This document shows, in pieces, positions 198 to 18,552 of a stretch of DNA of 18,609 nt. A program made the position numbers and the translations under genes. The stretch covers positions 2,258,009 to 2,276,617 of the forward strand of contig CP070719.1 of the NCBI GenBank assembly GCA_020350725.1, in the 5' to 3' direction. A model generated the notes under the pieces. The model did not search any database. It saw nothing but the letters and a program-made list of their open reading frames with translations, and was not told the DNA's origin. The number at the start of each line of letters is the position of its first letter. Positions within the stretch are counted from its first letter, which is position 1. The stretch comes from a bacterium (GTDB lineage: Bacteria; BMS3Abin14).

Positions 198-328
198 GTT
201 TTCAGTTTTACATTTTGGATTTGGGACCTTGGATTGATCCCTAATGTCTAATGCTCTAATCTCTATTGCTCTGCTTCATAACTGTAAACAGTGAACCGGG
301 AACTGAGAGTCAGAAACTCAAATTATCC
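198..328 (+). repeat. Degenerate heptamer array running up to the LysE-family start codon
   Basis: From 198 the sequence reads as 7-nt steps of changing word type: GTTTTCA/GTTTTAC, then ATTTTGG/ATTTGGG, then TCTAATG/CTCTAAT/CTCTATT. From 280 it gives AACTGTA, AACAGTG, AACCGGG and AACTGAG. The last units reach the start codon at 331 and occupy the place where a ribosome binding site would be. The individual words are degenerate, so single units are weak evidence; the constant 7-nt step is the signal. Confidence 0.6.
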
Positions 329-330
329 CC

Positions 331-969
331 ATGAATTATCCTGCACTCTTCATATCCGCATTCATCGTGGCCCTGTCCGGCGCCCTGATGCCGGGCCCGC
401 TGCTGGCGGTTACCCTGGGACACTCACCCCGCCAGGGCTGGACGTTCGGCCCTCTGGCTGTTGTCGGACACGGAATCCTGGAACTGGGGCTGGTGTCCAT
501 GGTCTTTCTCGGTGCCGGCCCCCTTCTCCAGGCCACCGGGGTGCAGGCGGTGGTGGGACTGGCGGGGGGCATCATCCTGGTCTGGATGGGCAAGGGCATG
601 TATGTGACAGCCCGGTCTCCTGCCCCACCTGAGGCAGCCGAGAATGTCAACGGTCAGGGGAGAAGAGCCGTTCTGCTGGGAGCACTGACCAGTATCTCCA
701 ACCCCTACTGGACTCTCTGGTGGGCGACCGTAGGCCTGGCCTACCTGACCCTCGCTGCGGAAAAGGGGCCCTGGGGTATCGTCGTCTTCTTCCTCGGGCA
801 TATTTCCGGGGACTTGGCATGGTACACGGTTGTTTCCGCCACCGCCTCGCGGGGGGTCAGTCTTGCCGATATGAAGTTGTACAGGGTCATCATGGTCGTC
901 TGCTCGGGCGCTCTGGTCCTTCTCGGTCTGTGGTTCGTCCTCTACGGTGCGAAGCTTGTCCTGTCATGA
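331..969 (+). CDS. LysE/RhtB-family amino-acid exporter
   Basis: This 212-residue protein is almost entirely hydrophobic, with about six predicted membrane segments (roughly residues 5-27, 42-62, 68-88, 115-137, 145-167 and 187-209). The family signature is near the N terminus: a small-residue-rich stretch followed by MPGPLLAVT, the conserved PGP turn. An SNPYW motif follows in the fourth segment. LysE-family proteins export amino acids or related metabolites through the inner membrane; the substrate cannot be read from the sequence. Length fits the family. The start is ATG 331, but no good Shine-Dalgarno precedes it because the upstream region is a heptamer repeat. The gene stands alone, followed by an AT-rich intergenic tract. 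Confidence 0.85.
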   Translation: MNYPALFISAFIVALSGALMPGPLLAVTLGHSPRQGWTFGPLAVVGHGILELGLVSMVFLGAGPLLQATGVQAVVGLAGGIILVWMGKGMYVTARSPAPPEAAENVNGQGRRAVLLGALTSISNPYWTLWWATVGLAYLTLAAEKGPWGIVVFFLGHISGDLAWYTVVSATASRGVSLADMKLYRVIMVVCSGALVLLGLWFVLYGAKLVLS

Positions 970-1018
970 CGGCGGCCGGCCGGCGACCCCATAATTTTTT
1001 TGCCCGACCATGTCCCGA

Positions 1019-1255
1019 AGAATCCGCTTCCGAATAAAAATAAACAAAAAATATTTCCAGAATTTCATTTTTTTTGGGAAAAATATTTTCCTCCCATTAA
1101 TTGAGGACATGATTTATTGCTGCTTTCCCCTTTTAAATCGAAGATATATCAGGTAAATAAAGCATTTATTGACATGATATTTTTAGAAAAATATTGCTAA
1201 CAATTAATATTCCTAATAATATTAATTAAAACCTGGATTAAATTATTTTTTTGAA
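1019..1255. other. AT-rich intergenic tract with palindromes
   Basis: This stretch is strikingly AT-rich in a GC-rich genome: only 19 of the 110 bases at 1141-1250 are G or C. It holds a perfect 10-bp inverted repeat, AATTAATATT (1202-1211) and AATATTAATT (1218-1227), six bases apart. There is also a near-palindrome GGAAAAATATTTTCC at 1077-1091. It lies directly upstream of an AT-hook protein gene, so it could be the protein's own target; that is inference. Confidence 0.7.
1169..1197 (+). promoter_or_regulatory. Candidate promoter of the AT-hook gene
   Basis: A perfect TTGACA at 1169-1174 is followed after 17 bp by TATTGC (1192-1197, 3 of 6 consensus). Transcription would begin near 1204, inside the 10-bp inverted repeat at 1202-1227. 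The -35 is strong and the -10 is weak. Confidence 0.4.
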
Positions 1256-1266
1256 AGGAGCGCGTG

Positions 1267-1809
1267 GTGGAAAAAGAGCTCGAGAAAGTAAAGGGCGCTT
1301 TGGACGATTTCCGGAAGAAGGTCGTGGAGGTCGTCAAAAAGGGAAAGGGTGAGGCGGATAGGGTCGCCAGGCTGGCGCACCTGAAACTGGAGATCGGTTC
1401 TCTGAATCGCCAGAGAAAGGACCTCTTCGAGGAGCTGGGAGAGGCCTTTTACAGGAACTACCGGAAGCCGGGGAAAAACGCGGAGAAGACCGTCGCCGAT
1501 CTTGTCTCCCACGTCAACGAGGTGGAAAAACGTCTGGCCTCCTTCAGGCGGGACCTCAAGGCGGAGGAGAAGGTGACCGCCCCGGCCCGGAAGGGCCGCG
1601 GCAGACCTTCTAAACCTGCCTCAGCAAAGACCGGGGGGGAAGCGCCCAAGCGCCGGGGCAGACCGCCCAAATCGGCGGCAGCGAAATCAGGATCGGCCGC
1701 GCCCAAGCGGCGAGGCAGGCCCCCCAAGCCTGCTGCTGCCTCGAAGGCCGCCCAGGCCGGAACGCCCAAAAAGCGGGGCAGGCCGCCCAAATCGGAGAAA
1801 ACGGATTAA
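1267..1809 (+). CDS. Coiled-coil protein with four C-terminal AT-hooks
   Basis: This 180-residue, lysine-rich protein has two parts. Residues 1-105 are charged and heptad-like, probably a helical coiled coil for oligomerisation. The C-terminal 75 residues are Ala/Pro/Lys linkers carrying four AT-hook cores, (K/R)GRP(P/S)K, with GRP at about 112-114, 131-133, 150-152 and 171-173. AT-hooks insert into the minor groove of AT-rich DNA, so a nucleoid-associated or histone-H1-like regulator is likely. I do not recognise the N-terminal domain. Two adjacent GTG codons (1264, 1267) can start it; the Shine-Dalgarno AAAGGAG (1254-1260) is better spaced (6 nt) for 1267. The tail repeats also at DNA level, suggesting expansion by duplication. 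Confidence 0.8.
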   Translation: MEKELEKVKGALDDFRKKVVEVVKKGKGEADRVARLAHLKLEIGSLNRQRKDLFEELGEAFYRNYRKPGKNAEKTVADLVSHVNEVEKRLASFRRDLKAEEKVTAPARKGRGRPSKPASAKTGGEAPKRRGRPPKSAAAKSGSAAPKRRGRPPKPAAASKAAQAGTPKKRGRPPKSEKTD

Positions 1810-1829
1810 GGCCCCCTGAGCCGAAGACG

Positions 1830-1858
1830 CCGGTGGACCAGAGGTAATAGCCCACCGG
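1830..1858 (+). other. Inverted repeat after the AT-hook gene
   Basis: CCGGTGG (1830-1836) pairs with CCACCGG (1852-1858) across a 15-nt loop, shortly after the AT-hook stop codon. No T-tract follows, so this is at best a weak or Rho-assisted terminator, or an mRNA 3' structure. Confidence 0.35.
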
Positions 1859-1921
1859 TCACTTCCTCGCCTGTCTCTGGTGGGGGCCGGTGACACGCCC
1901 AGTCCGCTCGAGGTGATCCGA

Positions 1922-2338
1922 GTGCCTGAGAAGATAACACGGTTCGGGGTCTCGATTCCCGCCCGCCTTCTGAAAAGGTTCGATGAACACATCAGGGACG
2001 GCGGTTACGCAAATCGTTCCGAGGCCCTGCGCGACCTCATAAGGGACTATCTCGTCGAGCGGGAATGGCAATCGGATGTGGAGACCGTCGGCACGGTGAC
2101 CCTGGTCTACGATCACCACGTCAGAGAGCTGGCCGACGCCCTGACCAACATACAGCATGAGATCGGAGAGGCCATCGTATCCACCCTGCACATCCACCTG
2201 GACCATCACCTCTGTCTGGAGGTCATCGTCGTCAAGGGCAACAGCAGGAGGATCCGGCAGATGGCCGACCGACTCATCGGCCTGAAGGGAGTGGTTCACG
2301 GAAAGCTGACGGCAGCGACCGTGGGACGTTCCTTTTAG
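1922..2338 (+). CDS. nikR: NikR nickel-responsive transcriptional regulator
   Basis: NikR is a tetrameric ribbon-helix-helix repressor that binds Ni(II) and represses nickel-uptake genes. With GTG 1922 as start the protein has 138 residues, the usual NikR size. Residues 5-47 form the RHH domain (TRFGVSIPARLL, then GYANRSEALRDLIRDYL). Residues 55-138 form the ACT-like metal-binding domain. The high-affinity nickel ligands of E. coli NikR (H76, H87, H89, C95) are all present at a constant offset as H79, H90, H92 and C98, in LHIHLDHHLCLE. GTG 1922 is preferred over ATG 1880 because GAGGTGAT (1910-1917) sits 4-5 nt upstream and homology begins there. No nickel transporter or hydrogenase gene is nearby, so targets must lie elsewhere. 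Confidence 0.92.
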   Translation: MPEKITRFGVSIPARLLKRFDEHIRDGGYANRSEALRDLIRDYLVEREWQSDVETVGTVTLVYDHHVRELADALTNIQHEIGEAIVSTLHIHLDHHLCLEVIVVKGNSRRIRQMADRLIGLKGVVHGKLTAATVGRSF

Positions 2339-2543
2339 GAACGGTGGAAAGTGCAGGGTGCCGGGGGCACACTTCCGGCCGGATCACCCCTTTTCGGAGA
2401 GGGTCTATTCCATAGATACGGGTCGAACCCGGTTGCGGCGGCTCAATCATATCCGGACCGAACCGACCGCGGGGTGTGCCATCGCAGAGTCCAGGCGTTG
2501 CTGACGGATGGCGTTGCCTTTTTCATTCTGGAATCCCCCGGCA

Positions 2544-3263
2544 TCAAAAAGGTCTGAAGTCGGCTGGACCTGTTTCGGGATTAAGGGTGATCTTCCGTAT
2601 CTCCGTAGTCCCCGTGTGAAACCCCGAAGCCCAGTTTTCCTCGTGGTGGGCATACAGGATCCCGTCCACCTCCTTGAAGTCGGAGTATTCCGTCTCGAAG
2701 TGCGTCTTGACGGTTTCGGTGTTCAGGATCGCCTGACTGAACACGATACGGGCGGTTTTCGGATCGGCAAACAGGCGGATAATGAGACCGGGTTCCAGAA
2801 TAATCTGCATCCCGATGGTCATGCGATCACCCACTTTGAGGGCGGGGATCTGGGTGACTTCCTCCCTTCTCTCTGAAAGGATCCAGGGTATGTCGGCCCT
2901 TGCCGCCTGCAGGATCATGGATTTGAGGAGATGGCCACCCACCTCCTTGATCCCCGCGCCGGAAGGATCGGTGCGCCATCCGCGTCCCCGATCCAGATAT
3001 CTCCTTTCCGGATTTGCCCCGTAGGCCAGATCCACATAGAGGCGGTCAGGTCGGGCGAAGAGCCTGACCATGGAGCCTTCCGTCTGCCTCATCTTCGCCT
3101 TTACGGTCCCCTCCATACGGTAGGTCCTGATCGTGTCCAGTCTTTCCCCGCCGTAGGCGTCGAGGATCCTGTTCACCAGCCGGTCCATAGCCGCATCGCC
3201 ATGCAGGGGAGCGGGGGAAAGGACGATAGGAAGCAGGAGTAAAAGGAGATGTTTTTTCCACAT
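2544..3263 (-). CDS. LolA-like periplasmic / outer-membrane lipoprotein-sorting family protein
   Basis: From ATG 3263 the protein has 239 residues. It begins with MWKK and a leucine-rich core ending near LHGDA, a typical Sec signal peptide cleaved around residue 23. The mature part starts with a short helix (DRLVNRILDAYGG), then many amphipathic beta strands (TYRMEGTVKAKM, RLYVDLAYG, KTHFETEYSDFKEVDGILYAH). It ends with TEIRKITLNPE, a pattern familiar from proteins annotated as outer membrane lipoprotein-sorting protein with a LolA/LolB-like fold. This is a family-level match from pattern only, and I cannot assign a lipoprotein partner. The ORF could extend upstream, but only the ATG at 3263 gives a signal peptide at the N terminus. 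No clear Shine-Dalgarno is visible. Confidence 0.65.
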   Translation of the reverse strand: MWKKHLLLLLLPIVLSPAPLHGDAAMDRLVNRILDAYGGERLDTIRTYRMEGTVKAKMRQTEGSMVRLFARPDRLYVDLAYGANPERRYLDRGRGWRTDPSGAGIKEVGGHLLKSMILQAARADIPWILSERREEVTQIPALKVGDRMTIGMQIILEPGLIIRLFADPKTARIVFSQAILNTETVKTHFETEYSDFKEVDGILYAHHEENWASGFHTGTTEIRKITLNPETGPADFRPF

Positions 3264-3384
3264 GATATTCAGGTGATGACATCGGGCCGCCCCGCGGTGC
3301 GGTCCCCGAGGGACGCCCGGAAGACTCCGGGGCGATACGGGTACGATTGTCCTGCCGGACACCGGACGATGCCCCTTCCCCTTC

Positions 3385-3412
3385 TTGACACCCTGCCCTC
3401 CGGAGTTATAAT
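3385..3412 (+). promoter_or_regulatory. Consensus sigma-70 promoter of tRNA-Val
   Basis: Perfect TTGACA (3385-3390) and perfect TATAAT (3407-3412) are separated by 16 bp. The tRNA begins 13 nt after the -10, so transcription should start only a few bases ahead of the mature 5' end. Confidence 0.85.
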
Positions 3413-3424
3413 CCCTAATAATCC

Positions 3425-3499
3425 GGGCGATTAACTCAGCGGGAGAGTGCTACCTTCACACGGTAGAAGTCACTGGTTCAAATCCAGTATCGCCCACCA
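3425..3499 (+). tRNA. tRNA-Val (anticodon CAC)
   Basis: The sequence folds as a complete 75-nt cloverleaf. The acceptor stem GGGCGAT pairs with ATCGCCC, and the D stem is ACTC/GAGT. The anticodon stem CTACC/GGTAG closes loop TTCACAC, giving anticodon CAC (reads GUG). The T stem ACTGG/CCAGT closes loop TTCAAAT. The discriminator base A and the 3' CCA (3497-3499) are genome-encoded. Confidence 0.95.
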
Positions 3500-3509
3500 C
3501 ATATAAATG

Positions 3510-3533
3510 GGGGCCGCCCGCTGGGGCGGCCCC
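3510..3533 (+). terminator. Hairpin terminator after tRNA-Val
   Basis: A 10-bp GC-only stem, GGGGCCGCCC (3510-3519) with GGGCGGCCCC (3524-3533), closes a 4-nt loop just 11 nt after the tRNA. The downstream run is only TGATCATTTA, so the U-tract is poor, but position and stem strength favour a terminator. Confidence 0.65.
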
Positions 3534-3685
3534 TGATCATTTATGGGAGAAATTTTCCCGCTCCATTTCCTTGCCAAGTTCCATTAGGGTCCGTCGTGGG
3601 GAATGCTGCTCAGGGGATATTCACCGGAAAAGAGAGCCCCGAAAGGGCAGAGCTCACTCGATTGTCATTCAGCATGAAATCTGAT

Positions 3686-4093
3686 CTAAGACTGAAACTT
3701 CGGAAAAGGAACCTTCCAATATCCGATGCCCTCGTCCTGGAGATCCTGTTCCTCTTCGACCGTCATGGTGCCGCGGATATTCCTGGCGTCTATCTCACCG
3801 AAATGTATCTTGATTGCCTCCTCGGCGAACTTGGGCCCCACGTTGTCGAAGTTCTTCTCGATGTACTCCATGAGGAGCTTGGTCTTCGAATGCTCAGGTG
3901 CCTGCCGGTGCCCGGACCTCTCCGGCGCCGACCTGGATATATGTCCCCCGCTGGGGACGATGTCGACTTCAGGGACACCGCACACCGGGCATGTCAGCCT
4001 CCCGAACGCGCTTTCGGTGTCGAACTCGTCCCGACCTTTGAACCAGCCTTCGAAGGTGTGTCCCTGTGAGCATTTCAGGTCGTAGATGATCAT
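3686..4093 (-). CDS. DUF1178 family protein
   Basis: This small soluble protein of 135 residues starts MIIYDLKCSQGHTFEGWF, the characteristic opening of DUF1178 proteins. A CPVCG motif near residue 36 follows. Together with Cys8 and His12 it probably forms a zinc-ribbon-like site. The second half (KFAEEAIKIHFGEIDARNIRG, then EEEQDLQDEGI) matches the family's conserved helical C terminus. Molecular function is unknown. ATG 4093 is chosen over GTG 4102 because GGGAG lies 8 nt upstream of the ATG but overlaps the GTG. It is monocistronic, with tRNA-Val downstream and divergent to the clpB side. Confidence 0.85.
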   Translation of the reverse strand: MIIYDLKCSQGHTFEGWFKGRDEFDTESAFGRLTCPVCGVPEVDIVPSGGHISRSAPERSGHRQAPEHSKTKLLMEYIEKNFDNVGPKFAEEAIKIHFGEIDARNIRGTMTVEEEQDLQDEGIGYWKVPFPKFQS

Positions 4094-4114
4094 GCCGTTC
4101 ACTCCCTATAGAAA

Positions 4115-4142
4115 GATTTAATCAAAAATGAGTTTATGTCAA
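4115..4142 (-). promoter_or_regulatory. Candidate promoter of the DUF1178 gene
   Basis: On the minus strand TTGACA (plus 4142-4137) precedes an AT-rich region containing TAAATC after 16 bp (plus 4120-4115); TTAAAT one base earlier is an alternative. The -35 is perfect and the -10 is poor. Confidence 0.4.
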
Positions 4143-4225
4143 TGTCTTATACTCCAGGAAAAAGTGAGCGAAGACGGCCACCTGAAATGGGTTTTTCCGG
4201 CCTGCGGACGCCTGTTCCTTGCCCC

Positions 4226-4462
4226 TCCCGATCTCCCATTTCCCATATCCCGCGTCCAATCTCCCATGTTCCATCTCCAATCACTAATCTCCGATCTCCA
4301 ATGTCTAATTCCAATCTCTAATGTCTATTTTTCAATCTCCCGTGTTCCATCTTCAATCTCTAATCTCCAATCTCTAATGTCTATTTGCCAATCTCCAATG
4401 TCCAATCTCTAACCTCCAATGTCTAATGTCTAATTCCTAATCTCTATTTCCCAATCTCCCTT
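4226..4462 (+). repeat. Heptanucleotide array, 34 units, consensus (C/G)TC(C/T)AAT
   Basis: All 237 bases divide into 33 heptamers and a single hexamer (4310-4315). Common units are CTCCAAT, CTCTAAT, GTCTAAT and GTCCAAT. Variants include CTCCCAT, GTTCCAT and GTCTATT. The array fills most of the 482-nt gap between the DUF1178 gene and clpB. No spacer sequences, ORF or RNA-like fold was seen. It ends about 47 nt before the clpB promoter candidate. Confidence 0.9.
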
Positions 4463-4508
4463 ATCCGCTGTAACTGTTCGGAAATTAACATCAATATCGG
4501 CATCCCGA

Positions 4509-4536
4509 TTGACACGAACCCGCCAGTGGTTAACTT
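4509..4536 (+). promoter_or_regulatory. Weak promoter candidate upstream of clpB
   Basis: TTGACA (4509-4514) is followed after 16 bp by TAACTT (4531-4536, 3 of 6). Neither a CIRCE inverted repeat nor a recognisable heat-shock sigma-32 promoter was seen between the heptamer array and clpB. Confidence 0.3.
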
Positions 4537-4575
4537 CAGCTGGGATAGATCTTCAGTGACGCGGGAGGATCGCAA

Positions 4576-7167
4576 ATGGCGGTTAATTTCGACAGGCTGA
4601 CCATCAAGGCCCAGGAAGCATTCCAGGAGGCCCAGAGAGAAGCTGAAAGCAGGAGCCATCAGCAGATCGATGTCGAACACCTTTTCCGGGCCCTTCTCGA
4701 TCAGGAGGGCGGAGTGGTCGTCCCTCTTCTGGAGAAGATCGGCGTTGATCCTGGGTCGATCAGGACGAAAATCGATGCTGAATTGGACCGCCTGCCCAAG
4801 GTCACCGGACTGACCCAGGTCTACATTTCCCCCCGTCTCAACGCTCTCTTCAACCTGGCTCAGAAGGAAGCGGAAGGTCTGAAGGATGAATACATCAGTT
4901 CCGAGCACGTCTTCCTCGCCATGATCGATGAGAAGGGTGGGACGACGGCCCGGGTCCTGAAGGACGGACAGGTCAGCAGGGAAAAGGTCCTGGAGGCGCT
5001 GATGAGCGTCAGGGGCAGCCGTCGGGTTACCGATCAGAATCCGGAGGAGAGCTACCAGGCCCTCATGAAATACGGCAGGGACCTGACCGACCTGGCCCGA
5101 AGGAGGAAACTGGATCCCGTGATCGGCAGAGACGATGAGATCCGCAGGGTCATCCAGGTCCTCTCACGTCGGACCAAGAACAACCCGGTTCTCATCGGGG
5201 AACCCGGGGTGGGCAAGACAGCCATTGCGGAGGGGTTGGCCCAGAGGATCGCCGGCGGAGACGTCCCAGAAGGTCTCAAAAAGAAGAGGATCGTCGCCCT
5301 CGACATGGGGGCCCTGGTTGCGGGCGCCAAATACCGGGGCCAGTTCGAGGAGAGGTTGAAGGCCGTTCTGCACGAGGTGGAGGAAGCGGCCGGGGAGATT
5401 ATCCTTTTCATCGATGAGCTCCATAACCTCGTCGGCGCCGGCAGGGCCGAGGGTTCCATGGATGCCTCAAATATGCTCAAGCCTGCTCTTGCGCGCGGTG
5501 AACTGAGATGCGTCGGTGCCACGACACTGGACGAATACAGAAAATATATTGAAAAAGACGCAGCCCTTGAACGGCGGTTCCAGCCCACCTTCGTCTCCGA
5601 ACCTTCCGTGGGGGACACCATCGCCATTCTCAGGGGGCTCAAGGAGCGTTACGAGATCCACCACGGAGTCCGGGTCACCGATGCGGCTATCGTCGCCGCC
5701 GCCACCCTTTCGAACCGATATATCACGGATCGCTTTCTCCCGGACAAGGCCATCGACCTTGTGGACGAGGCGGCCTCGCGCCTCCGAATCGAGATCGACA
5801 GCCTCCCCCAGGAGATCGACGAGGTGGAGAGAAAGATCATCCAGCTTCAGATCGAAAGGGAGGCCCTGAAGAAGGAAGACGATCCCGGATCACGCGAGCG
5901 TTTGGACAAGATCGAGCGGGAACTTGCCGATCTCACCGAGAAAAGCTCCTCCATGAAGGCGCGCTGGCAGATGGAGAAGGAGACGATCCAGACCATCCGG
6001 GCTCTCAAGGAGGAGGTCGAACAGGTGAAGTACGGGGCCCAGAAGGCCGAAAAGGACGGGGACCTTGAATTGGCAGCGGAGCTCAAGTACGGAAAGATGC
6101 CCAAACTCGACGAGGATCTGGAGGAGGCCAACAAGCGATTGACGGAACTGACGGCCGAACAGCGGATGCTCAAGGAAGAGGTGGATGCAGAGGATATCGC
6201 CGAGATCGTATCGAAGTGGACCGGTGTCCCGGTTACCCGCCTTCTCGAGGGCGAGATGGACAAGCTCATCAGGATGGAGGAGCGCATCGGAAGGAGGGTG
6301 ATCGGTCAGGCCGAGGCGGTTACCGCCGTGTCCAACGCGGTCCGGCGCGCCAGGGCGGGCCTCCAGGATCCGAACCGTCCCATCGGCTCCTTCATTTTCA
6401 TGGGGCCGACGGGTGTCGGGAAGACGGAACTGGCAAAGGCCCTGGCCGAGTTCCTCTTTGACGACGAAAATGCCATGGTCAGGATCGACATGTCCGAGTT
6501 CATGGAAAAACATGCCGTGGCGAGGCTCATCGGAGCGCCGCCGGGCTACGTCGGGTACGAGGAGGGGGGGTATCTCACGGAGGCCGTCAGGCGCAGGCCG
6601 TACAGTGTCATCCTCATCGACGAGATCGAGAAGGCCCATCCCGAGGTGTTCAACATCCTGCTCCAGATGCTGGATGACGGCCGCCTCACCGACGGTCAGG
6701 GACGGACGGTGGATTTCAGAAATACAGTTGTGATCATGACCTCGAACATCGGCAGCAGCTACATAGCTGAACTTCAGGGACAGGACGACGGGGAGATGAG
6801 AGAGCGCGTCACGGAAGCGCTCAGGACCCATTTCAGGCCCGAATTCATCAACCGGATCGATGATGTCATCATCTTCCATTCCCTGGACATGGATCAGATC
6901 AAGGCCATTGTTCAGATCCAGCTGTCGAGGTTGGAGGCAATGCTCGAGTCGAGGGGTATCGGGCTTGAGGTCACGGCCGCCGCCCTGGACCATATCAGCA
7001 GGGAGGGTTACGATCCCGTTTACGGAGCCCGTCCCCTCAAGAGGGTTATCCAGAAGTCCATTCAAAACGTCCTCGCCGTGGATATCCTGTCCGGCAAGTT
7101 CACGGACGGAGACACGGTCATTGTGGACGCGACAGACGACCGGATAGTGCTTTCGGGGAAAAAATAG
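4576..7167 (+). CDS. clpB: ATP-dependent disaggregase ClpB
   Basis: ClpB is a hexameric AAA+ chaperone that, with DnaK, pulls polypeptides out of aggregates in the cytoplasm. The 863-residue length is typical. In order: N-terminal double Clp-N domain (about 1-145); first AAA+ domain with Walker A GEPGVGKT (208-215) and Walker B ILFIDE (276-281); a coiled-coil M domain (about 400-530, rich in Glu/Lys heptads) that separates ClpB from ClpA/ClpC; second AAA+ domain with Walker A GPTGVGKT (610-617) and Walker B LIDE (to 682-683); and the C-terminal D2-small domain ([15 protein letters not shown]). ATG 4576 has GGGAGGAT (4563-4570) at good distance. The gene appears monocistronic and is convergent with the histidine kinase gene. 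Confidence 0.98.
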
Positions 7168-7174
7168 GGGTCGT

Positions 7175-7202
7175 AGTTCCCGGTTCCCAGTTCACGGTTT
7201 CC
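7175..7202 (-). repeat. Heptamer array after clpB (GTGAACT family, minus sense)
   Basis: Four consecutive 7-nt units, AGTTCCC, GGTTCCC, AGTTCAC and GGTTTCC, lie just after the clpB stop codon. Read on the minus strand they are GTGAACT/GGGAACC words, the same family as 7309-7343 but in inverted orientation. Confidence 0.7.
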
Positions 7203-7217
7203 AGGTATTGAAACGGC

Positions 7218-7277
7218 GGGACTTCCATCACCGGACCATCCCGGTCAGAGTATCCTTTGCCTGCCGCCGGAAGTCCC
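7218..7277. other. Nested inverted repeats at the clpB/kinase convergent junction
   Basis: GGGACTTCC (7218-7226) pairs with GGAAGTCCC (7269-7277). Inside lies a smaller hairpin, ACCGG (7230-7234) with CCGGT (7241-7245). Together with the inverted heptamer arrays on both sides the junction is symmetric. It could serve as a bidirectional end structure, but no T-tracts are present. Confidence 0.45.
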
Positions 7278-7308: not shown

Positions 7309-7343
7309 AACTGTGAACGGTGAACTGTGAACTGAAAACTGCC
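7309..7343 (+). repeat. Heptamer array abutting the kinase stop codon (AACTGTG family)
   Basis: Five units in 7-nt steps, AACTGTG, AACGGTG, AACTGTG, AACTGAA and AACTGCC, end two bases from the stop codon of the minus-strand kinase gene at 7346. Confidence 0.75.
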
Positions 7344-9089: not shown

Positions 9090-9110
9090 AAGTGATAAGT
9101 GACACTTGAT
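9090..9110. repeat. Short heptamer run in the kinase leader
   Basis: AAGTGAT, AAGTGAC and ACTTGAT follow each other in 7-nt steps between the predicted transcription start and start codon of the kinase gene. Three units alone could be chance, but similar GATAAGT units recur at 18203-18223. Confidence 0.4.
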
Positions 9111-11483: not shown

Positions 11484-11512
11484 TTGACAGACCGCTTGGT
11501 CAGTGATATAGC
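11484..11512 (+). promoter_or_regulatory. Internal promoter candidate for tpiA-secG
   Basis: TTGACA (11484-11489) and TATAGC (11507-11512, 4 of 6) are 17 bp apart in the 74-nt pgk-tpiA gap. The inverted repeat GACC-N4-GGTC (11490-11501) lies in the spacer. It could let tpiA and secG be expressed apart from gapA-pgk. Confidence 0.5.
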
Positions 11513-11542
11513 CCGCCATCAATGCCGGAGGAGGTTGAGTCA

Positions 11543-12301: not shown

Positions 12302-12318
12302 GGAGGATTGAGGAAAAA

Positions 12319-12702
12319 ATGGTGATCATTCTTCTTAAAATACTTCACATACTGGTTGCGGTTTTCCTGATACTGGTCGTGCTTCTGCAGACCGGGAAGG
12401 GAGCCGAGATGGGTGCCGCATTCGGCGGTGCCAGCCAGACGGTCTTCGGCGGCGGCGGGCCCGCAGGATTCATGGCCAAGCTGACGACGACGGCGGCCGT
12501 CGTGTTCATGCTCACATCCCTCGGACTGGCCTACCTGTCTTCCGGCGGCCGGTCCCAGGTTGACACCTTGCCGGCCAGCCAGCCGGTGCAGGAGTTGCCC
12601 GTTCTGCCCACTGAGGGTCAATCAGACATCCCGGCGGAAGTGCCGCCCTCCGGGACCGATATCCCTGAGGCGGGCCAGCCGGTGGAGGAACCCTCCCGGT
12701 AG
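12319..12702 (+). CDS. secG: Protein translocase subunit SecG
   Basis: SecG is the small third subunit of the SecYEG translocon in the inner membrane. The 127-residue protein has two hydrophobic helices (about 4-24 and 52-74) separated by the conserved loop LLQTGKGAEMGAAFGG, followed by S-x-TVFGG. The C-terminal 50 residues are Pro/Glu/Ser-rich and predicted disordered, longer than in E. coli SecG but common in other phyla. Shine-Dalgarno GAGGA at 12310-12314 lies 4-5 nt before ATG 12319. It follows tpiA closely. It converges on the LysM gene with only 15 nt between stop codons, and no terminator was seen. Confidence 0.93.
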   Translation: MVIILLKILHILVAVFLILVVLLQTGKGAEMGAAFGGASQTVFGGGGPAGFMAKLTTTAAVVFMLTSLGLAYLSSGGRSQVDTLPASQPVQELPVLPTEGQSDIPAEVPPSGTDIPEAGQPVEEPSR

Positions 12703-12717
12703 TTGTCGCTCGATACC

Positions 12718-13752: not shown

Positions 13753-13795
13753 GACAAACTCCTTTTTGAAGACACCTTCAGTAAACCCGTGAAAA

Positions 13796-13824
13796 ATCAT
13801 AGGCTCCATGCCCAGCCCTGTCAA
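13796..13824 (-). promoter_or_regulatory. Promoter of the LysM gene
   Basis: On the minus strand, perfect TTGACA (plus 13824-13819) and TATGAT (plus 13801-13796, 5 of 6) are 17 bp apart. The start site would be near 13788, giving a 36-nt leader to ATG 13752. Confidence 0.75.
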
Positions 13825-13852
13825 GAAATCCTTCTATTGCCGCCGGCCGGGC

Positions 13853-14584
13853 TCAAAGGGTTTCCTCCTGGTTCTCGAGGAAACTCAGGTACATCCTGGC
13901 TTTCGGGTTCATTGGATGGGTTTTCAGAACCTCTCTCCACTCGGCGGCCGCCCGGTCGAGGAAGCCGCGGGAGAAATAAGTGATCCCCAGCTGGATGCGA
14001 GCATCCAGAAAATCCGGCCTCGCCGCCGCGGTCCTGGCGAAGACCTCGAGGGCGTCATCGAAATGCCCCATCTCTCTCAGGATCACCCCCATTTTCACCT
14101 GAACATCTGCGAAGCCGGGGGCGAGATCGAGGGCCTTTCTGTACTCGTCCAAACCCTCCTCAAGCAGGCCGAGCTCCCTGTATATGTCGCCGACCTCAAC
14201 ATGTTTGTTGGCCAGCTTGCCGGCGACGAAAGGGTCAAGGGAAACCTGTCTGCTCGTGACCCTGTTCTGGGCCCTCTGCACCACGTCCTTGGCCTCTTCA
14301 TATCGGCCGATCTCGTTGAGAGTCACGGCGAGGTTCAGGGAGGCCTCGGTGTAGTCCGGGTTAACCCGGACTGCCTTGGCCAGAAATTCCTTCGCACGGA
14401 GATAATCTCCCTTCTTAAAATAGAGCTGACCGATCCTGTTGCACACGTCGGCGAACTCGGGGTTTTTCTGGTGGAGCTCGATGAGAATGGATTCCGCCTC
14501 GTCAAGTCGGTCCCCGGCAATAAGGGCATCCACTTCTGTCAGGCTCAGTTCAACGGAGACCGGTTCCGTCTGTTTTTCCTTCAT
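13853..14584 (-). CDS. Tetratricopeptide-repeat protein
   Basis: This 243-residue soluble protein is built from about six TPR units. Each has the helix-turn-helix pattern of small residues and a terminal Pro, for example ADVCNRIGQLYFKKGDYLRA, TEASLNLAVTLNEIGRYEEA, ADVQVKMGVILREMGHFDDA and LDARIQLGITYFSRGFLDRA. TPR arrays bind peptides; no catalytic domain or signal peptide is present, so it is probably cytoplasmic. Its ATG overlaps the bamD stop codon in an ATGA arrangement (14581-14584), so translation is likely coupled to bamD. GAAGGTGG precedes the start by 3 nt. A role in envelope assembly is inference from context. Confidence 0.85.
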   Translation of the reverse strand: MKEKQTEPVSVELSLTEVDALIAGDRLDEAESILIELHQKNPEFADVCNRIGQLYFKKGDYLRAKEFLAKAVRVNPDYTEASLNLAVTLNEIGRYEEAKDVVQRAQNRVTSRQVSLDPFVAGKLANKHVEVGDIYRELGLLEEGLDEYRKALDLAPGFADVQVKMGVILREMGHFDDALEVFARTAAARPDFLDARIQLGITYFSRGFLDRAAAEWREVLKTHPMNPKARMYLSFLENQEETL

Positions 14585-15303
14585 GGCCCACCTTCTTCGC
14601 TGGCAGGGTTATCCAGATCCTTGGCTTCCCTCGCCCTGGCGGCGAGGGCCTCCGCCTCTCTTTTGATGTCCGGAGGGAATTGGCCCTCGAGGATCCCCGA
14701 GGTCCTCGAGAGAGCGGCCTCAGGCCTGTTTTTCTTGAGGTAATATTCAGCCACTTCGAGCTCGTGACGCCCCTCCTTCTCTATGAGAAGGCCGATCCAG
14801 TCCCGAGCCTCGGCGCCATGCCTGCCGTCCGGGTGATCTTCCAGGTATTCCTCGAGCAGGAGGCGGGCGTTGCGCAGGGGCTCTACGTCTCTGTCGTGGG
14901 GGATCTCCTTCCTGATGGTGAACAGGCCGATCCTCTTGCGCTGTATCAGGCGGATGTTGGCCAACGCCCTCATGTAAAGGGCCTCAGACGCGAGGGGTCC
15001 CGTCGGATAGTTGGAGAGATAGGAAGCGTATTGGGAATCGGCCAGGAGAAAGTTGCCAAGGCGGAAGTTGGATTCCCCTAGAAGAAACTGAACCTCGCCG
15101 CCGAGGGTGGTTCCGGCGGTGACGATTTTGAGGTCATCGAGGATTTTGACGGCTGAATCGTACTGCCTCTTGGTGTAGAGCTTACGGGCCTCCTCCAGGC
15201 TTTCGGCGGGACTGGTCTCCTTCTTGACGGGTGCGGAGCATGAAACGGTCCATGTGAGGAAGACAGTAAGGGTGAGAAGGATGTGCAGAAACCGGGTTTT
15301 CAG
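14581..15303 (-). CDS. bamD: BamD-like outer-membrane assembly lipoprotein with a CTG start
   Basis: BamD is the essential lipoprotein of the BAM complex that inserts beta-barrel proteins. The first ATG (14973) would remove the first half of the protein. The open frame continues upstream to a stop at 15343-15345 and encodes a lipoprotein signal: KTRFLHILLTLTVFLTWTVSC, with lipobox VSC and lipidated Cys22. TPR helices follow (LEEARKLYTKRQYDSAVKIL, QFLLGESNFRLGNFLLADSQ). The end, ELEVAEYYLKKNRPEAALSR, matches the BamD pattern. No in-frame ATG, GTG or TTG exists upstream of 14973. CTG 15303 has AAAGGAG 6 nt upstream and lies 34 nt after a predicted transcription start. The product is 240 residues, normal for BamD. 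CTG 15306 is a less well spaced alternative. Confidence 0.8.
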   Translation of the reverse strand: MKTRFLHILLTLTVFLTWTVSCSAPVKKETSPAESLEEARKLYTKRQYDSAVKILDDLKIVTAGTTLGGEVQFLLGESNFRLGNFLLADSQYASYLSNYPTGPLASEALYMRALANIRLIQRKRIGLFTIRKEIPHDRDVEPLRNARLLLEEYLEDHPDGRHGAEARDWIGLLIEKEGRHELEVAEYYLKKNRPEAALSRTSGILEGQFPPDIKREAEALAARAREAKDLDNPASEEGGP

Positions 15304-15344
15304 CAGGGGCTCCTTTTGAAGCTTGCGTTGGACGATCCGGTCCT

Positions 15345-15374
15345 AGTATGGTGAAGAAGCGGGTTGGGTGTCAA
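15345..15374 (-). promoter_or_regulatory. Promoter of bamD
   Basis: On the minus strand, TTGACA (plus 15374-15369) and CATACT (plus 15350-15345, 4 of 6) are 18 bp apart. Transcription from about 15337 fits translation from the CTG at 15303. Confidence 0.6.
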
Positions 15375-15450
15375 GTTTAAGCTGTGGGAAAGAGGATCTG
15401 ATGTGCAAGAGGCCCGTATTCCTGAACGGCAGGGAAAATATGCCCTTACT

Positions 15451-15464
15451 TGTCATGGATGACA
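15451..15464 (+). promoter_or_regulatory. Perfect palindrome TGTCAT-GG-ATGACA upstream of the metallo-hydrolase gene
   Basis: Two 6-bp arms are separated by 2 bp, 26 nt before the ATG of the RNase Z-like gene and in the divergent gap with bamD. It has the form of a dimeric repressor site, but no promoter was clearly identified around it. Confidence 0.3.
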
Positions 15465-15489
15465 GGGTCTCATCTGCCGGGAGCCCGCT

Positions 15490-16272
15490 ATGATCGTCAC
15501 GATCCTCGGATCCGGGACGTCTGTTCCTCAGAGGGCGCGGTCCGCGCCCGGTTCACTGGTCAGGGTGGGAAAACGCTGTCTCCTTGTGGATGCCGGGACA
15601 GGGGTCATCTGGAACCTGCTCAGATTCGCCGGGATCGGATTGGACAGGCTCGGCGGCGTGCTCCTGACACACCTTCATATCGATCACTGTGCAGACCTCG
15701 CCCCGATGCTGTTCGCCCTGCGGTCGGTCGAACTGCCACGATCGGCTCCCCTTCTCGTCGCCGGTCCCGAGGGGACCGAGAACTACTACAAAAGCCTCCA
15801 TGGACTCTACGGGCGGTGGGTCGAACCCGCGGACTATGAGCTTTCCGTCAAGGACCTGAGGGGTGAGGTTCTCAGGTGGGAGGGTTTCGAGATCAGGAGT
15901 GCCCGGACTGAGCATTCCCTGGAAAACATCGCCTACCGGATCACGGACGAGGAATCAGGGAGAAACTGCCTGTTTACCGGGGATGGACAGCCAACTGAAT
16001 CGCTGATTGCCATGGCGGGGGGGGAGGTCGACATCCTGATAGCCGAATGCGCCGTGCCTCCGGAGGATACCGAGATGGGACATATGAACCCGGCCCAGGC
16101 GGGTGCCCTGGCAAGTGACTGCGGAGCGAGGCTCCTGGTCCTGAACCACCTGAACCCGGGCTGTCAGAGGGAGGCAGTGGCCAGTGAAGCCGCCCGATAT
16201 TTTTCGGGCAAGATCCTTGTAGCGGAAGATGGAATGAGTGTGTCGCTGGAGAGTGTTGAGTCAGGCGGGTGA
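15490..16272 (+). CDS. RNase Z-like metallo-beta-lactamase-fold hydrolase
   Basis: This 260-residue protein begins ILGSGTSVPQ, the first strand and glycine turn of the RNase Z/arylsulfatase branch of the metallo-beta-lactamase fold. Zinc ligands are visible: HLHIDH (His61, His63, Asp65, His66), His142 in TEHSLENIAYRI, Asp165 in FTGDGQPT and His220 in LNHLNP. GHMNPAQAGALA matches the conserved helix of RNase Z-like proteins. True RNase Z trims tRNA 3' ends. The protein lacks an obvious exosite insertion, and both tRNAs in this window encode CCA, so another hydrolase role is possible. GGGAG (15479-15483) lies 6 nt before ATG 15490. The gene is divergent from bamD. Confidence 0.85.
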   Translation: MIVTILGSGTSVPQRARSAPGSLVRVGKRCLLVDAGTGVIWNLLRFAGIGLDRLGGVLLTHLHIDHCADLAPMLFALRSVELPRSAPLLVAGPEGTENYYKSLHGLYGRWVEPADYELSVKDLRGEVLRWEGFEIRSARTEHSLENIAYRITDEESGRNCLFTGDGQPTESLIAMAGGEVDILIAECAVPPEDTEMGHMNPAQAGALASDCGARLLVLNHLNPGCQREAVASEAARYFSGKILVAEDGMSVSLESVESGG

Positions 16273-16297
16273 TCCCCGGCCGGCAGCCTGACGGGCC

Positions 16298-16405
16298 CTA
16301 CTCCTCCTTTTCGAAACTGTTGGCTGCGCCGCACGCACTGCACTTGCGTGGTTTACACCGACCCTCCTTGGTTTCGCCGCACTCCTTGCACTTGAATGTC
16401 GCCAT
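16298..16405 (-). CDS. RCKP-type rubredoxin-like miniprotein
   Basis: This 35-residue protein was found by reading the minus strand. It opens MATFKCKECGETKEG and continues RCKPRKCSACG, ending in SFEKEE. Cysteines sit at 6, 9, 17, 22 and 25, giving two CxxC knuckles (C6/C9, C22/C25) that can bind one zinc or iron. The arrangement, with the RCKP tetrapeptide in the middle, matches a known family of tiny rubredoxin-like proteins. It resembles the C-terminal rubredoxin part of rubrerythrin. It follows perR on the same strand, which suggests a link to peroxide or redox stress. The Shine-Dalgarno is weak (GGAAAGGA, about 11 nt upstream). Confidence 0.8.
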   Translation of the reverse strand: MATFKCKECGETKEGRCKPRKCSACGAANSFEKEE

Positions 16406-16431
16406 GGCGTTCAGGGTCCTTTCCAGAAAAG

Positions 16432-16515
16432 GTTTCCAGGTTCCATGTTCCAGGGCACGGGTTTCAGGGTTCGGGGAAAGAAGGTGGCACCTGGTACCTG
16501 GAACATGGAACTACT
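16432..16515. repeat. Heptamer array between perR and the RCKP gene
   Basis: Twelve steps of exactly 7 nt fill the stretch up to the perR stop codon (16516). Units such as GTTTCCA, GGTTCCA and TGTTCCA stand on one side; CACCTGG, TACCTGG and AACATGG stand on the other. The two sides are inverted: GTTCCATGTTCCAGG (16440-16454) is the exact reverse complement of 16497-16511, so the RNA can form a 15-bp hairpin. Confidence 0.75.
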
Positions 16516-16932
16516 CTAAGAGCATTCCTCACATTGTCCGGTGAAGGCAACCTGTACACTCTGAACCCGGAAGCCCTCCAGTTCCGGTAATTCGGAGGAG
16601 AAAGACGAGGATTCCCCGGGGAATATGTCCCGTATACCGCGGCAGCTCCTGCAGAAGGCGTGATAGTGCTCACTGACGTCGGGGTCGTAATGGGCCCTTT
16701 CCGGATCGACGGACAGTTCGTTGATCTCACCGAGGTCCCTCAGGGTCTGGAGCGTTTTGTAGACGGTGGTAAAGGAGATCGACGGGTGGATCTCGAGGAC
16801 CTGATGGTATATGTTTTCCGCCGATGGGTGGTCCTTGTTGTCCATCAGCAGGGCGAAGATGCTCAGCCGTTGCGGTGTGATCTTCATCCCGGCTTCCCTG
16901 AACCGCTCCACAACCGTATCGATATCGTTCAT
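16516..16932 (-). CDS. perR: PerR-type peroxide-responsive repressor (Fur family)
   Basis: PerR is a dimeric metal-dependent repressor that is inactivated when peroxide oxidises its metal-bound histidines. From ATG 16932 the protein has 138 residues. The winged helix carries KITPQRLSIF and SFTTVYKTLQTL. Regulatory metal ligands match B. subtilis PerR at a constant offset of two: His35, Asp83, His89, His91 and Asp102, the last being Asp rather than the Glu typical of Fur. The structural zinc site is intact: CRSC (94-97) and CEEC (134-137). GTG 16992 could add 20 residues, but homology starts at 16932. Neither start has a clear Shine-Dalgarno. The RCKP miniprotein follows. A weak AT-rich candidate operator, ATTA-N4-TAAT, lies about 70 nt upstream. 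Confidence 0.85.
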   Translation of the reverse strand: MNDIDTVVERFREAGMKITPQRLSIFALLMDNKDHPSAENIYHQVLEIHPSISFTTVYKTLQTLRDLGEINELSVDPERAHYDPDVSEHYHAFCRSCRGIRDIFPGESSSFSSELPELEGFRVQSVQVAFTGQCEECS

Positions 16933-17179
16933 GGACCCAACCGCCTTATCTTTATTGAAGGACTGTAACCTATTCTCCCTGTTCGAAAACACACTTTATA
17001 GATTAAAAATAATTAGTGAAAAAGTAAACATCCAAATTGCACCGCCCTTCTCGCGCTGCGCGTGTGGAAATGAAGCAGAATGCAGGCGGCACTCCTGACC
17101 ACCCCGCAGTTTAGATAGCGGCCTGATTTCCGAGACAAAAACAGCCAGCGGGACCCGCTGTCCTAAGAGGAAGGGAGAT

Positions 17180-17392
17180 TTACCACAGGTGCCAATCCTT
17201 CCAATCCCTCTCGAGGAGGTCGAGGAAGAACCCGACCAGGGGAAAGTAGATCAGAAGGAAAGGCGCACATGATGAGAAGGTCAGCCAGAAGGGCGGCTCG
17301 GCAAGGGCCGACAGGAGAAGAACCAGGAGGAAGATGAGGGAGAAAAGCTTGGTGGACGTGTGCTTCCACCCGGCCATGGAATAACGCTTCAT
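17180..17392 (-). CDS. Small two-helix membrane protein of unknown function
   Basis: With ATG 17392 the product has 70 residues. A short basic N terminus (MKRYSMAGWKHTSTK) is followed by two hydrophobic stretches (about 14-31 and 34-58), with a Pro-Pro turn between them, and a charged C-terminal tail (ERDWKDWHLW). The frame is open to GTG 17452 and an internal ATG at 17377 also exists, so the start is uncertain; no good Shine-Dalgarno decides it. I recognise no family. A promoter and palindrome lie directly upstream (17441-17487), which supports a real gene. Confidence 0.5.
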   Translation of the reverse strand: MKRYSMAGWKHTSTKLFSLIFLLVLLLSALAEPPFWLTFSSCAPFLLIYFPLVGFFLDLLERDWKDWHLW

Positions 17393-17440
17393 CCTTGTCC
17401 AGGCCTGAGGTTTCAAGGTTCCCCCTTGCCGTGAAAATGC

Positions 17441-17452
17441 GTGAAATTTCAC
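17441..17452 (-). promoter_or_regulatory. Perfect 12-bp palindrome GTGAAATTTCAC (operator candidate)
   Basis: The palindrome sits at the predicted start of transcription of the small membrane protein gene. A second GTGAAA half-site occurs at 17431-17436, ten bases away. The GAAATTTCA core is shared with the kinase promoter spacer around 9130-9138. Confidence 0.45.
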
Positions 17453-17458
17453 ATGTAA

Positions 17459-17487
17459 AGTAAAAACAAGTTTCCCGGGGTTGTCAA
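17459..17487 (-). promoter_or_regulatory. Promoter candidate of the small membrane protein gene
   Basis: On the minus strand, perfect TTGACA (plus 17487-17482) and TTTACT (plus 17464-17459, 4 of 6) are 17 bp apart. Confidence 0.5.
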
Positions 17488-17529
17488 GGAAGAAGTTCCC
17501 CCTGCCTCCGGGGGTGAGGTGGGGGAAAT

Positions 17530-17564
17530 GAGTCCAGGGTCCAGAGGCCAGAGTCCAGAGGGGC
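17530..17564 (+). repeat. GAGTCCA heptamer array, copy 1
   Basis: Five units in strict 7-nt steps: GAGTCCA, GGGTCCA, GAGGCCA, GAGTCCA and GAGGGGC. Copies 2 and 3 lie at 18130 and 18518. GC-rich GGGCGA/GACGCGG words follow to about 17606. Confidence 0.8.
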
Positions 17565-17613
17565 GGACGGGCGAGGGGGAGAGGGGGCGAATAGCGGACG
17601 CGGAGAAAAAACG

Positions 17614-17843
17614 AATCACAAATTACGAATCACTAATCACGGCGGTCTCAACTGCGAACCGGGAACCGTGAACCGTGAATTAATCTTTACTGATCACGAA
17701 TCACAAGTCACTAGTCACGGCGGTCTCCCAACTGTGAACGGGGAACCGTGAACCGTGAACTGTCCTTTTGGATTTTGGATTTTGGTTTTTGGTTTTGTTG
17801 ACGAATCACAAATCACTGATCACGGTGGTCTCAACCGTGAACC
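17614..17843 (+). repeat. Three-copy composite heptamer block (AATCACG / GGCGGTC / GAACCGT words)
   Basis: The same succession occurs three times: AATCACA-type heptamers (from 17614, 17692 and 17804), a GGCGGTC or GGTGGTC bridge (17641, 17719, 17824), then GAACCGT-type heptamers (from 17656, 17736 and about 17832). A TTTTGGA/TTTTGGT heptamer run (17766-17793) lies between copies 2 and 3. Steps inside each run are 7 nt. There is no gene in 17453-17962; this block and its neighbours occupy most of it. Confidence 0.8.
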
Positions 17844-17860
17844 CTTCGACGGACTCAGGA
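17833..17860 (+). repeat. 28-bp inverted repeat, left copy
   Basis: This sequence matches the reverse complement of 18296-18323 at 26 of 28 positions. The core is CCCTTCGACGG-CTCAGG. The pair flanks a segment holding tRNA-Leu. Confidence 0.7.
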
Positions 17861-17925
17861 CAAGCTCACAGGTGGCCTGTCGGCCATGTTCTCGTCCCGC
17901 CTCCTTTTTTGGGCCTGCCGTGCCC

Positions 17926-17954
17926 AAAAAAAGCAGCCCTTTCGGGCTGCTTTT
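17926..17954 (-). terminator. Rho-independent terminator of tRNA-Leu
   Basis: A 7-bp stem, GCAGCCC (17933-17939) and GGGCTGC (17944-17950), closes loop TTTC. On the minus strand it is followed by seven U residues (plus A7 at 17926-17932) and preceded by four A residues. A second hairpin (GGGC 17911-17914 with GCCC 17922-17925) can pair the A-tract with T6 at 17905-17910. Confidence 0.88.
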
Positions 17955-17962
17955 GCGTCGAA

Positions 17963-18049
17963 TGGTGCCGAAGGCGAGACTCGAACTCGCACGGGCGTTA
18001 ACCCACCACCCCCTCAAGATGGCGTGTCTACCAGTTCCACCACTTCGGC
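17963..18049 (-). tRNA. tRNA-Leu (anticodon GAG)
   Basis: Read on the minus strand this is a complete 87-nt class II tRNA. The acceptor stem is GCCGAAG/CTTCGGC, and the D region contains GGTAGAC. The anticodon stem CCATC/GGTGG closes loop TTGAGGG, giving anticodon GAG. A long variable arm and a T arm with GTTCGAGTC follow, and the 3' CCA is encoded (plus 17963-17965). Confidence 0.95.
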
Positions 18050-18060
18050 GGCGAGGGGAC

Positions 18061-18088
18061 ATTATTTCAAAGGTTAATTTTTTGTCAA
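18061..18088 (-). promoter_or_regulatory. Promoter of tRNA-Leu
   Basis: On the minus strand, perfect TTGACA (plus 18088-18083) and AATAAT (plus 18066-18061, 5 of 6) are 16 bp apart, ending 11 nt before the mature tRNA. Confidence 0.75.
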
Positions 18089-18129
18089 GGGGAATGGCCA
18101 TTGGAGGGGAAGGGGGGGCGGGGAGAAGC

Positions 18130-18164
18130 GAGTCCAGAGTCCAGAGGCCAGGGTCCAGAGGGAA
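18130..18164 (+). repeat. GAGTCCA heptamer array, copy 2
   Basis: Units GAGTCCA, GAGTCCA, GAGGCCA, GGGTCCA and GAGGGAA, all in 7-nt steps. It is nearly identical to copy 3 at 18518-18552. Confidence 0.8.
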
Positions 18165-18195
18165 CGCATGGGCGAGGGGGCGAAGGATATATAGT

Positions 18196-18292
18196 TCTAA
18201 GAGATAAGTGATAAGAGATTAAGTATACTGAGCATTCCTTATCACATTTGACCTAGTACTTAGGACTCAGTTCCCAGTTCCCAGTTCACAGC
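18196..18292 (+). repeat. Heptamer runs of GATAAGT and CCCAGTT words
   Basis: TCTAAGA, GATAAGT, GATAAGA and GATTAAG (18196-18223) are followed later by ACCTAGT, ACTTAGG, ACTCAGT, TCCCAGT, TCCCAGT and TCACAGC (18251-18292). All within-run steps are 7 nt. No coding potential is seen. Confidence 0.65.
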
Positions 18293-18295
18293 CTA

Positions 18296-18323
18296 CCCTG
18301 AGCCCGTCGAAGGGTTCACGGTT
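18296..18323 (-). repeat. 28-bp inverted repeat, right copy
   Basis: Reverse-complement partner of 17833-17860 (26 of 28 matches). The pair encloses about 435 bp with tRNA-Leu, its promoter and terminator, and heptamer arrays. Confidence 0.7.
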
Positions 18324-18325
18324 AA

Positions 18326-18367
18326 TACCTGAAACATGGAATATGGAACCTGAGACATGGGATGTGG
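18326..18367 (+). repeat. AACATGG heptamer array
   Basis: Six 7-nt steps: TACCTGA, AACATGG, AATATGG, AACCTGA, GACATGG and GATGTGG. The same word family occurs at 16488-16508. Confidence 0.7.
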
Positions 18368-18393
18368 CTATCAGGCGGGGAGAAAAAGCGGTT

Positions 18394-18471
18394 GTCATTG
18401 CGAGCCGATACCGGTGTGAAGCAATCTCGACGGCCGAGACTGCTTCGGCCCTGAAACAGCCTCGCAGTGAC
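18394..18471. repeat. Full copy of the GTCATTGCGAG palindromic element
   Basis: The outer arms GTCATTGCGAG (18394-18404) and CTCGCAGTGAC (18461-18471) pair with one mismatch. The inner arms GAAGCAATCTCG (18418-18429) and CGAGACTGCTTC (18435-18446) pair at 11 of 12. The whole 78-bp unit is a long imperfect hairpin, as in small non-coding mobile palindromes. Partial copies lie at 76-127 and from 18568. Confidence 0.75.
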
Positions 18472-18517
18472 ATTCTTTACTTAGCGGTACAGACAAGGAC
18501 CAGACGCGGGGAGAAAA

Positions 18518-18552
18518 GAGTCCAGAGTCCAGAGGCCAGGGTCCAGAGGGGA
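18518..18552 (+). repeat. GAGTCCA heptamer array, copy 3
   Basis: Units GAGTCCA, GAGTCCA, GAGGCCA, GGGTCCA and GAGGGGA, all in 7-nt steps. It lies between two copies of the GTCATTGCGAG element. Confidence 0.8.

Follow-up and report, generated by a model that had tools for sequence, protein, structure and literature searches.

Repeats with a heptamer unit have been on record for decades, and slippage, phase variation, G-quadruplexes or regulation is the usual explanation. In a survey by Mrazek (2007), cited in PMC4679880, heptanucleotide repeats outnumbered every other long-unit class in the majority of genomes. The Xanthomonas repeat GGGAATC is mostly intergenic, has four units most commonly, often occurs in facing pairs and has been linked to G-quadruplexes, and its prominent arrays lie at different genes in two species (Rehm 2015, PMC4692102). 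In Nostoc, GGGGA(C/T)T arrays span 39-179 nt. Here we describe the heptad arrays of an 18,609-nt stretch of bacterial DNA (G000:C1:2258009-2276617, referred to as the window), in which many different words share a 7-nt period, and we suggest that these arrays probably belong to small interspersed families of "heptad quartets" that are copied and inserted en bloc. An earlier note on the same DNA knew of no equivalent system described in a comparable lineage, but heptamer cases have already been published from Xanthomonas, Nostoc, Beggiatoaceae and Bacteroidetes, and the literature on separate lineages already includes an abundance of heptanucleotide repeats, arrays in facing pairs and a mode of four units. 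New, against the open-access literature, are the array density within one family, the constant period with word turnover at the genus level, the invariant length of modules, a length quantum that holds for different words and lineages, and in-frame inserts with specific words at a single site in one gene.

The arrays resemble long simple sequence repeats (LSSR; Mrazek 2007) and the cyanobacterial short tandemly repeated repetitive sequences (STRR) in period, intergenic location, number of words and sporadic occurrence across phyla, but arrays of the source genome (G000) are mostly fixed quartets in dispersed modules, whereas LSSR/STRR tracts vary in length. As in LSSR/STRR, 7-nt units are over-represented mainly outside genes in G000; in the GAGTCCA and GATAAG modules the length does not vary by whole units, while it does so in the related genome G001. 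The Xanthomonas and Nostoc repeats are also mostly intergenic heptads, and those of Xanthomonas share the four-unit mode and the facing pairs; unlike here, however, they are read as G-quadruplexes, which need a run of at least three Gs per unit. The main G000 words lack GGG, and the four-unit mode is also seen in such words, AATCACG and GAGTCCA among them, which argues against a G-quadruplex reading. The TAACTGA repeats of Beggiatoaceae (MacGregor 2015, PMC4679880) likewise form intergenic heptamer arrays with a patchy distribution in unrelated groups; they consist of one word immediately upstream of starts, whereas G000 uses many words, which are depleted in the 25 nt before starts.

The 7-nt period in the window, the genome and the family

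The source genome is a 2.78 Mb metagenome-assembled genome in a single scaffold (completeness 100%), and genome-wide figures for G000 come from 40 stretches, each 20 kb long and spaced evenly along it (800 kb, including 38 scaffolding gaps of 100 N). Gene calls were made with a purpose-written hexamer scorer, and arrays in the window were called at a lag-7 score of at least 10 and compared with Markov shuffles (n = 300). The claim of the earlier note that one 7-nt period underlies many words is borne out: 14 non-coding lag-7 arrays are found in the window, against a shuffle mean of 0.07 (maximum 1 in 300), while lags 5, 6, 9 and 11 give zero arrays, lag 8 two and lag 10 one. As the note had also stated, none of the window arrays overlaps a called gene. 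Across the genome sample 225 lag-7 arrays are intergenic (163 per 100 kb) and 9 of the total of 234 lie in called genes (1.4 per 100 kb of coding DNA). Intergenic counts at other lags are 44 for lag 8 and 0-4 for lags 3-6 and 9-13; the density at lags 3-6, 9-13 and 17-20 is 0-3 per 100 kb, and the multiples 14, 21, 28 and 35 are raised following lag 7. The autocorrelation check that the note had proposed also revealed an excess, with N-masked intergenic autocorrelation reaching 0.312 at lag 7 versus about 0.26, and 0.249 in coding DNA. The word GAGTCCA has 192 matches across G000, compared with 1 for its reversed control.

Arrays of period 8 form a separate, smaller and mostly G-rich class (44 in the sample). 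Examples lie at L025:10696 and L031:2062, with the words GAGGGGGC and GATGGGGC. That these are 7-nt arrays carrying insertions was rejected, as 0 of 44 overlap a 7-nt array. Lag-7 array density is 177 per 100 kb in divergent, 182 in co-directional and 205 in convergent regions, and depletion is restricted to the final 25 nt ahead of start codons; with no preference for a region type, a promoter- or start-linked function was also rejected. Frame-keeping 21-nt tandem copies show no excess inside genes of the G000 sample. A universal rule placing GA at a fixed position fits the abundant G000 words and fails in the family (z = 0.6, 49 word representatives). Self-complementary dinucleotides are avoided in the words at a level that is suggestive only (z = -2.9).

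In the seven family members with enough DNA (G001-G004 and G007-G009), there are 90-200 arrays per 100 kb of intergenic sequence, and lags 4, 5, 6, 10 and 11 are almost empty. The words differ among members: TACTTGG and AGGGCGC in G001, GACACTA in G008, GAGTCCA and AACGTTC in G003, and TTTTGGA in G007. The period is thus conserved while the words change, both genome-wide and family-wide, as the earlier note had held for the window. Mis-assembly, which the note had named as a possible source of the arrays, is unlikely because they recur in independent assemblies of the family.

Among 290 genomes, TTTTGGA arrays are abundant in G000, G007, G040, G051 and G287 and fewer in G035 and G182, and the reversed control is abundant in one genome only, G238, which is heptad-rich too. 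Words of G238 include GGTTTTA, AATTGGA and telomere-like TTTTAGG runs (L264, G238:C1:1-20000). GAGTCCA was dismissed as a cross-phylum word, since it is essentially limited to the window's family (41 genomes), unlike TTTTGGA. Heptads were also seen on contigs named as coming from KSB1 and Omnitrophota bacteria; in small samples of 20 unselected genomes, the majority have no heptad arrays. Inverted pairs prevail in G008 (11 versus 3), G287 (4 versus 1) and G051 (3 versus 0), but not in G000 (11 versus 19). In G287, which belongs to an unrelated family, facing TTTTGGA arrays of about 31 nt lie within one intergenic region (L193:15940-16142, L191:10304-10334, L255, L256), and in the clearest pair one array is just past a stop codon and the other just ahead of the next gene. 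At L263:594-669 in G051, two facing 31-nt TTTTGGA-like arrays are 14 nt apart and form a strong hairpin (z = -6.5).

Dispersed modules, fixed length and inserts in genes

In G000, 83% of the arrays overlap sequence with at least three matches in other intergenic regions, and TTTTGGA alone has 109 matches. Arrays of the same word have common flanks and a common unit order, as in the modules GAAAT-GAGTCCA-GAGTCCA-GAGGCCA-GCGTCCA-G-AGGGG and AATCAC(x4)-GGCGGTCTC-AACCGTGAAC; some TTTTGGA arrays stand alone between unrelated flanks. The number of units is fixed in the modules examined: all 28 copies of the GAGTCCA module have an identical 27-nt span (four units) between their flanks despite differing substitutions, and the GATAAG array is equally long in 9 of 9 copies between fixed flanks. 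Array lengths called at a low threshold in G000 peak at 27-32 nt. It is also evident that arrays turn over rapidly. G003 and G009 are syntenic with 86% identity over the single contig pair compared, and an array is shared in 0 of 6 orthologous array-bearing intergenic regions, a small number; in all six cases the region carrying the array is longer than its array-free counterpart.

To remove shared descent within a genome, IMG/VR contigs were searched with 17-nt anchors of two main words; anchors of two more words retrieved no more than 10 and 9 contigs. Four units were counted at 59 of 133 independent TTTTGGA sites and five units at 4, and the corresponding numbers for 103 independent GGATTGC sites are 57 and 5. 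Other words on the same contigs form 294 arrays of four units, 123 of three and 106 of five. The overall length histogram has a sharp peak at 31-32 nt, or about four units, which is absent from the broad curve obtained when simulated geometric lengths are passed through the same detector. A plasmid search with a 31-nt block gave no match, though the BLAST low-complexity filter may have hidden one.

Arrays inside genes are found in G040, which is unrelated to G000 and in which 4 of the 6 distinct TTTTGGA sites read are genic. Compared with the solved enzyme 4p71, PheS of G040 contains about 10 additional residues, and these coincide with an in-frame heptad array. At the same codon site, PheS of G187, from the same family as G040, carries an in-frame inverted pair of GGATTGC that folds strongly (z = -7). 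GGATTGC has 42 matches in G187 and 3 in G040, and TTTTGGA has 3 in G187 and 62 in G040 (word turnover in the G187 and G290 genera rests on pattern counts). Each genus therefore has its own word at the same PheS codon: either a permissive loop received insertions more than once, or one word was exchanged for another in place. The G040 and G187 inserts behave in this respect like Rickettsia palindromic elements, small repeats that sit in frame in unrelated genes, whereas in G000 only 9 of 234 arrays lie in called genes. The Rickettsia elements are about 150 bp long and encode a conserved peptide; a single quartet measures about 31 nt and a pair about 64 nt.

Arrays and surroundings in the window

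The arrays of the window are as follows (TRF, Tandem Repeats Finder).

198..308: weak heptad stretches, TTTTGGA-like at 198-233 and AACTGTG/GAACCGT-like at 280-308 (lag-7 scores 9.2 and 8.8)
4228..4446, minus strand: long degenerate array CTCCAAT/TCTAATG (reverse complement GATTGGA/GATTAGA; score 60), about 30 units with higher-order copies of 49 and 76 nt (TRF periods 7, 49 and 76)
7176..7199, minus strand: AGTTCCC array, opposite-strand member of the GAACCGT family (lag-7 scan)
7309..7341, plus strand: AACTGTG array, 33 nt (lag-7 scan)
16434..16511: facing arrays GGTTCCA (16434-16452) and ACCTGGA (16485-16511), reverse-complement relatives of each other (lag-7 scan, word families)
17530..17560, plus strand: GAGTCCA quartet, one instance of the dispersed GAAAT-GAGTCCA(x4)-AGGGG module (lag-7 scan, TRF)
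17611..17823, plus strand: AATCACG, GAACCGT and TTTTGGA arrays forming a mosaic linked by GGCGGTCTC, with the TTTTGGA array (31 nt) at 17766-17796 (lag-7 scan)
18130..18158, plus strand: GAGTCCA quartet, copy 2 (lag-7 scan)
18198..18291, plus strand: GATAAGT array followed by a partial inverted CTTATCAC arm and a TACTTAG-CAGTTCC array (lag-7 scan)
18327..18367, plus strand: ACCTGAA/ACATGGA array (lag-7 scan, TRF)
18517..18546, plus strand: GAGTCCA quartet, copy 3 (lag-7 scan)

The earlier note had listed 11 words as unrelated. Once strand and rotation are considered, only seven families remain: {AGTTCCC, AACTGTG, GAACCGT}, {GGTTCCA, CACCTGG, AACATGG}, and the single-word families CTCCAAT, GAGTCCA, AATCACG, TTTTGGA and GATAAGT. 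Two of the positions listed in the note are weak, namely 198-328 (lag-7 identity 0.46) and 9090-9110 (14 comparisons only). Copies of the 18198..18291 module elsewhere are fixed at length 24; the window copy folds no better than shuffles. In the region 17000-18609 the arrays are intermixed with other dispersed repeats, GTCATTGCGA..GAAGCAATCTC and CCTGAGCCCGTCGAAGGG, and a tRNA-Leu lies amid these repeats at 17963-18049. A period-10 repeat, ACCACAGAGG/GCCACAGAGG, is present at 141-195, and similar CCACAGAGG words are found again in the genome sample. The genes of the window, named from their translations, are presumably ClpB, GAPDH-PGK-TPI, a sensor kinase and further ordinary genes. The nearest relatives of its PGK are from uncultured Deltaproteobacteria/Proteobacteria metagenome-assembled genomes, with identity up to 60%.

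Origin of the arrays

We consider it probable, though by a modest degree, that the arrays are interspersed quartet families. A quartet would be a block of about four 7-nt units, 27-33 nt long with a mode at 31-32, that is inserted whole, either singly, as a hairpin-capable inverted pair, or joined into larger mosaics. Each genome would have a few words of its own, copies would diverge afterwards by substitution, and some arrays would later be lengthened by unit slippage. In the G000 lineage only intergenic quartets survive; those inserted into genes were probably purged. They would have spread by copying, and not by selection on a binding site, with the copying performed by host or selfish machinery. 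A wider proposal, that an unrecognised system in several unrelated lineages inserts four-unit cassettes of 31-32 nt, with own words in each genome and with the word at a site changeable while the period is kept, is put forward tentatively. Several points weigh against insertion en bloc. G000 copies share their length partly through descent as modules, and the contigs that yielded the 31-32 nt peak had been picked by few anchor words. The arrays of G001 are long, up to about 15 units, and variable in unit number, which fits slippage. The aconitase array of G040 replaces a G290 loop of similar length without heptads and is not a clean insert. MITEs are marked by terminal inverted repeats and target-site duplications; the handful of empty-site alignments of G003 and G009, which are rather diverged, show no evident duplication, and no flank consensus exists around 57 quartets. 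No mobilising enzyme was found for the arrays.

The earlier note had looked to a mechanism acting on length 7, such as slippage. Replication slippage with a preferred 7-nt step, set, according to a published proposal, by the stretch of DNA that the polymerase contacts, could build arrays in place, and frameshift selection could clear those in coding DNA. The very strong preference of several lineages for period 7 and the long variable arrays of G001 speak for it, as do the published 7-nt indels between Cyanothece strains (PMC4679880) and the proposal of Mrazek 2007. However, slippage predicts independent words at each locus and smoothly falling lengths, and these fit poorly with the dispersed shared words, the fixed unit number between module flanks and the four-unit quantum; the in-gene inserts match the genome-wide word, and genes lack an excess of 21-nt tandem copies. 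Slippage is thus an unlikely main cause, though in some genera, G001 for example, arrays may have grown longer by it. Selection on sites of a DNA- or RNA-binding protein, with four units per site, would suit the four-unit mode across words and the G287 inverted pairs adjoining gene ends, and TAACTGA repeats have been suggested in the literature to be translational regulators; but given the indifference to region type, the conservation of 0 of 6 orthologous sites and the replacement of words between genera, it appears improbable, and the protein binding every 7 bp that the note had envisaged is hard to reconcile with such replacement.

REPIN-like elements mobilised by RAYT (Y1) transposases form hairpin-capable inverted pairs dispersed in extragenic DNA, as the arrays of some genomes do. 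Inverted pairs, among them the G187 hairpin, occur in several genomes, though they do not prevail in G000, and most genomes rich in arrays have Y1_Tnp genes (G051 has 19, G187 has 10). Yet Y1_Tnp is missing from the array-bearing G007 (98% complete) and is found in 69 of 117 unselected genomes, and no link of the heptads to a RAYT was found; one of the two G000 RAYTs (L049) has a non-heptad flanking repeat of its own and no array within 2 kb of the gene. A REPIN/RAYT origin is thereby weakened and improbable. The L049 gene (L049:18414-19410, about 1,208.4-1,209.4 kb of G000) is RAYT-like and has the inverted 26-nt repeat GGGGTCGCATCTTGCCTTTTAACCTT on both sides; this repeat is dispersed, with 10 copies in the G000 sample, and unrelated to heptads. 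Templating of heptamers by an enzyme was another suggestion of the note. If heptamers were added from an RNA template by a reverse transcriptase or a telomerase-like enzyme, this would account for genome-specific words, constant period and word replacement, but no candidate was found: RVT_1 is missing from G000 and nine other members, being present in only 2 of 12 members of the family. This origin is very improbable. As to proteins that track the arrays, for which the note had proposed a search, neither reverse transcriptase nor RAYT does so.

The fixed four-unit size across words and lineages, together with the gain and loss of whole blocks and the in-frame insertion into an essential gene, points to an element, small and either mobile or copied, behind repeats that have so far been attributed to other causes. 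An old question is thereby made testable, namely what inserts 31-nt blocks and why it does so in 7-nt steps.

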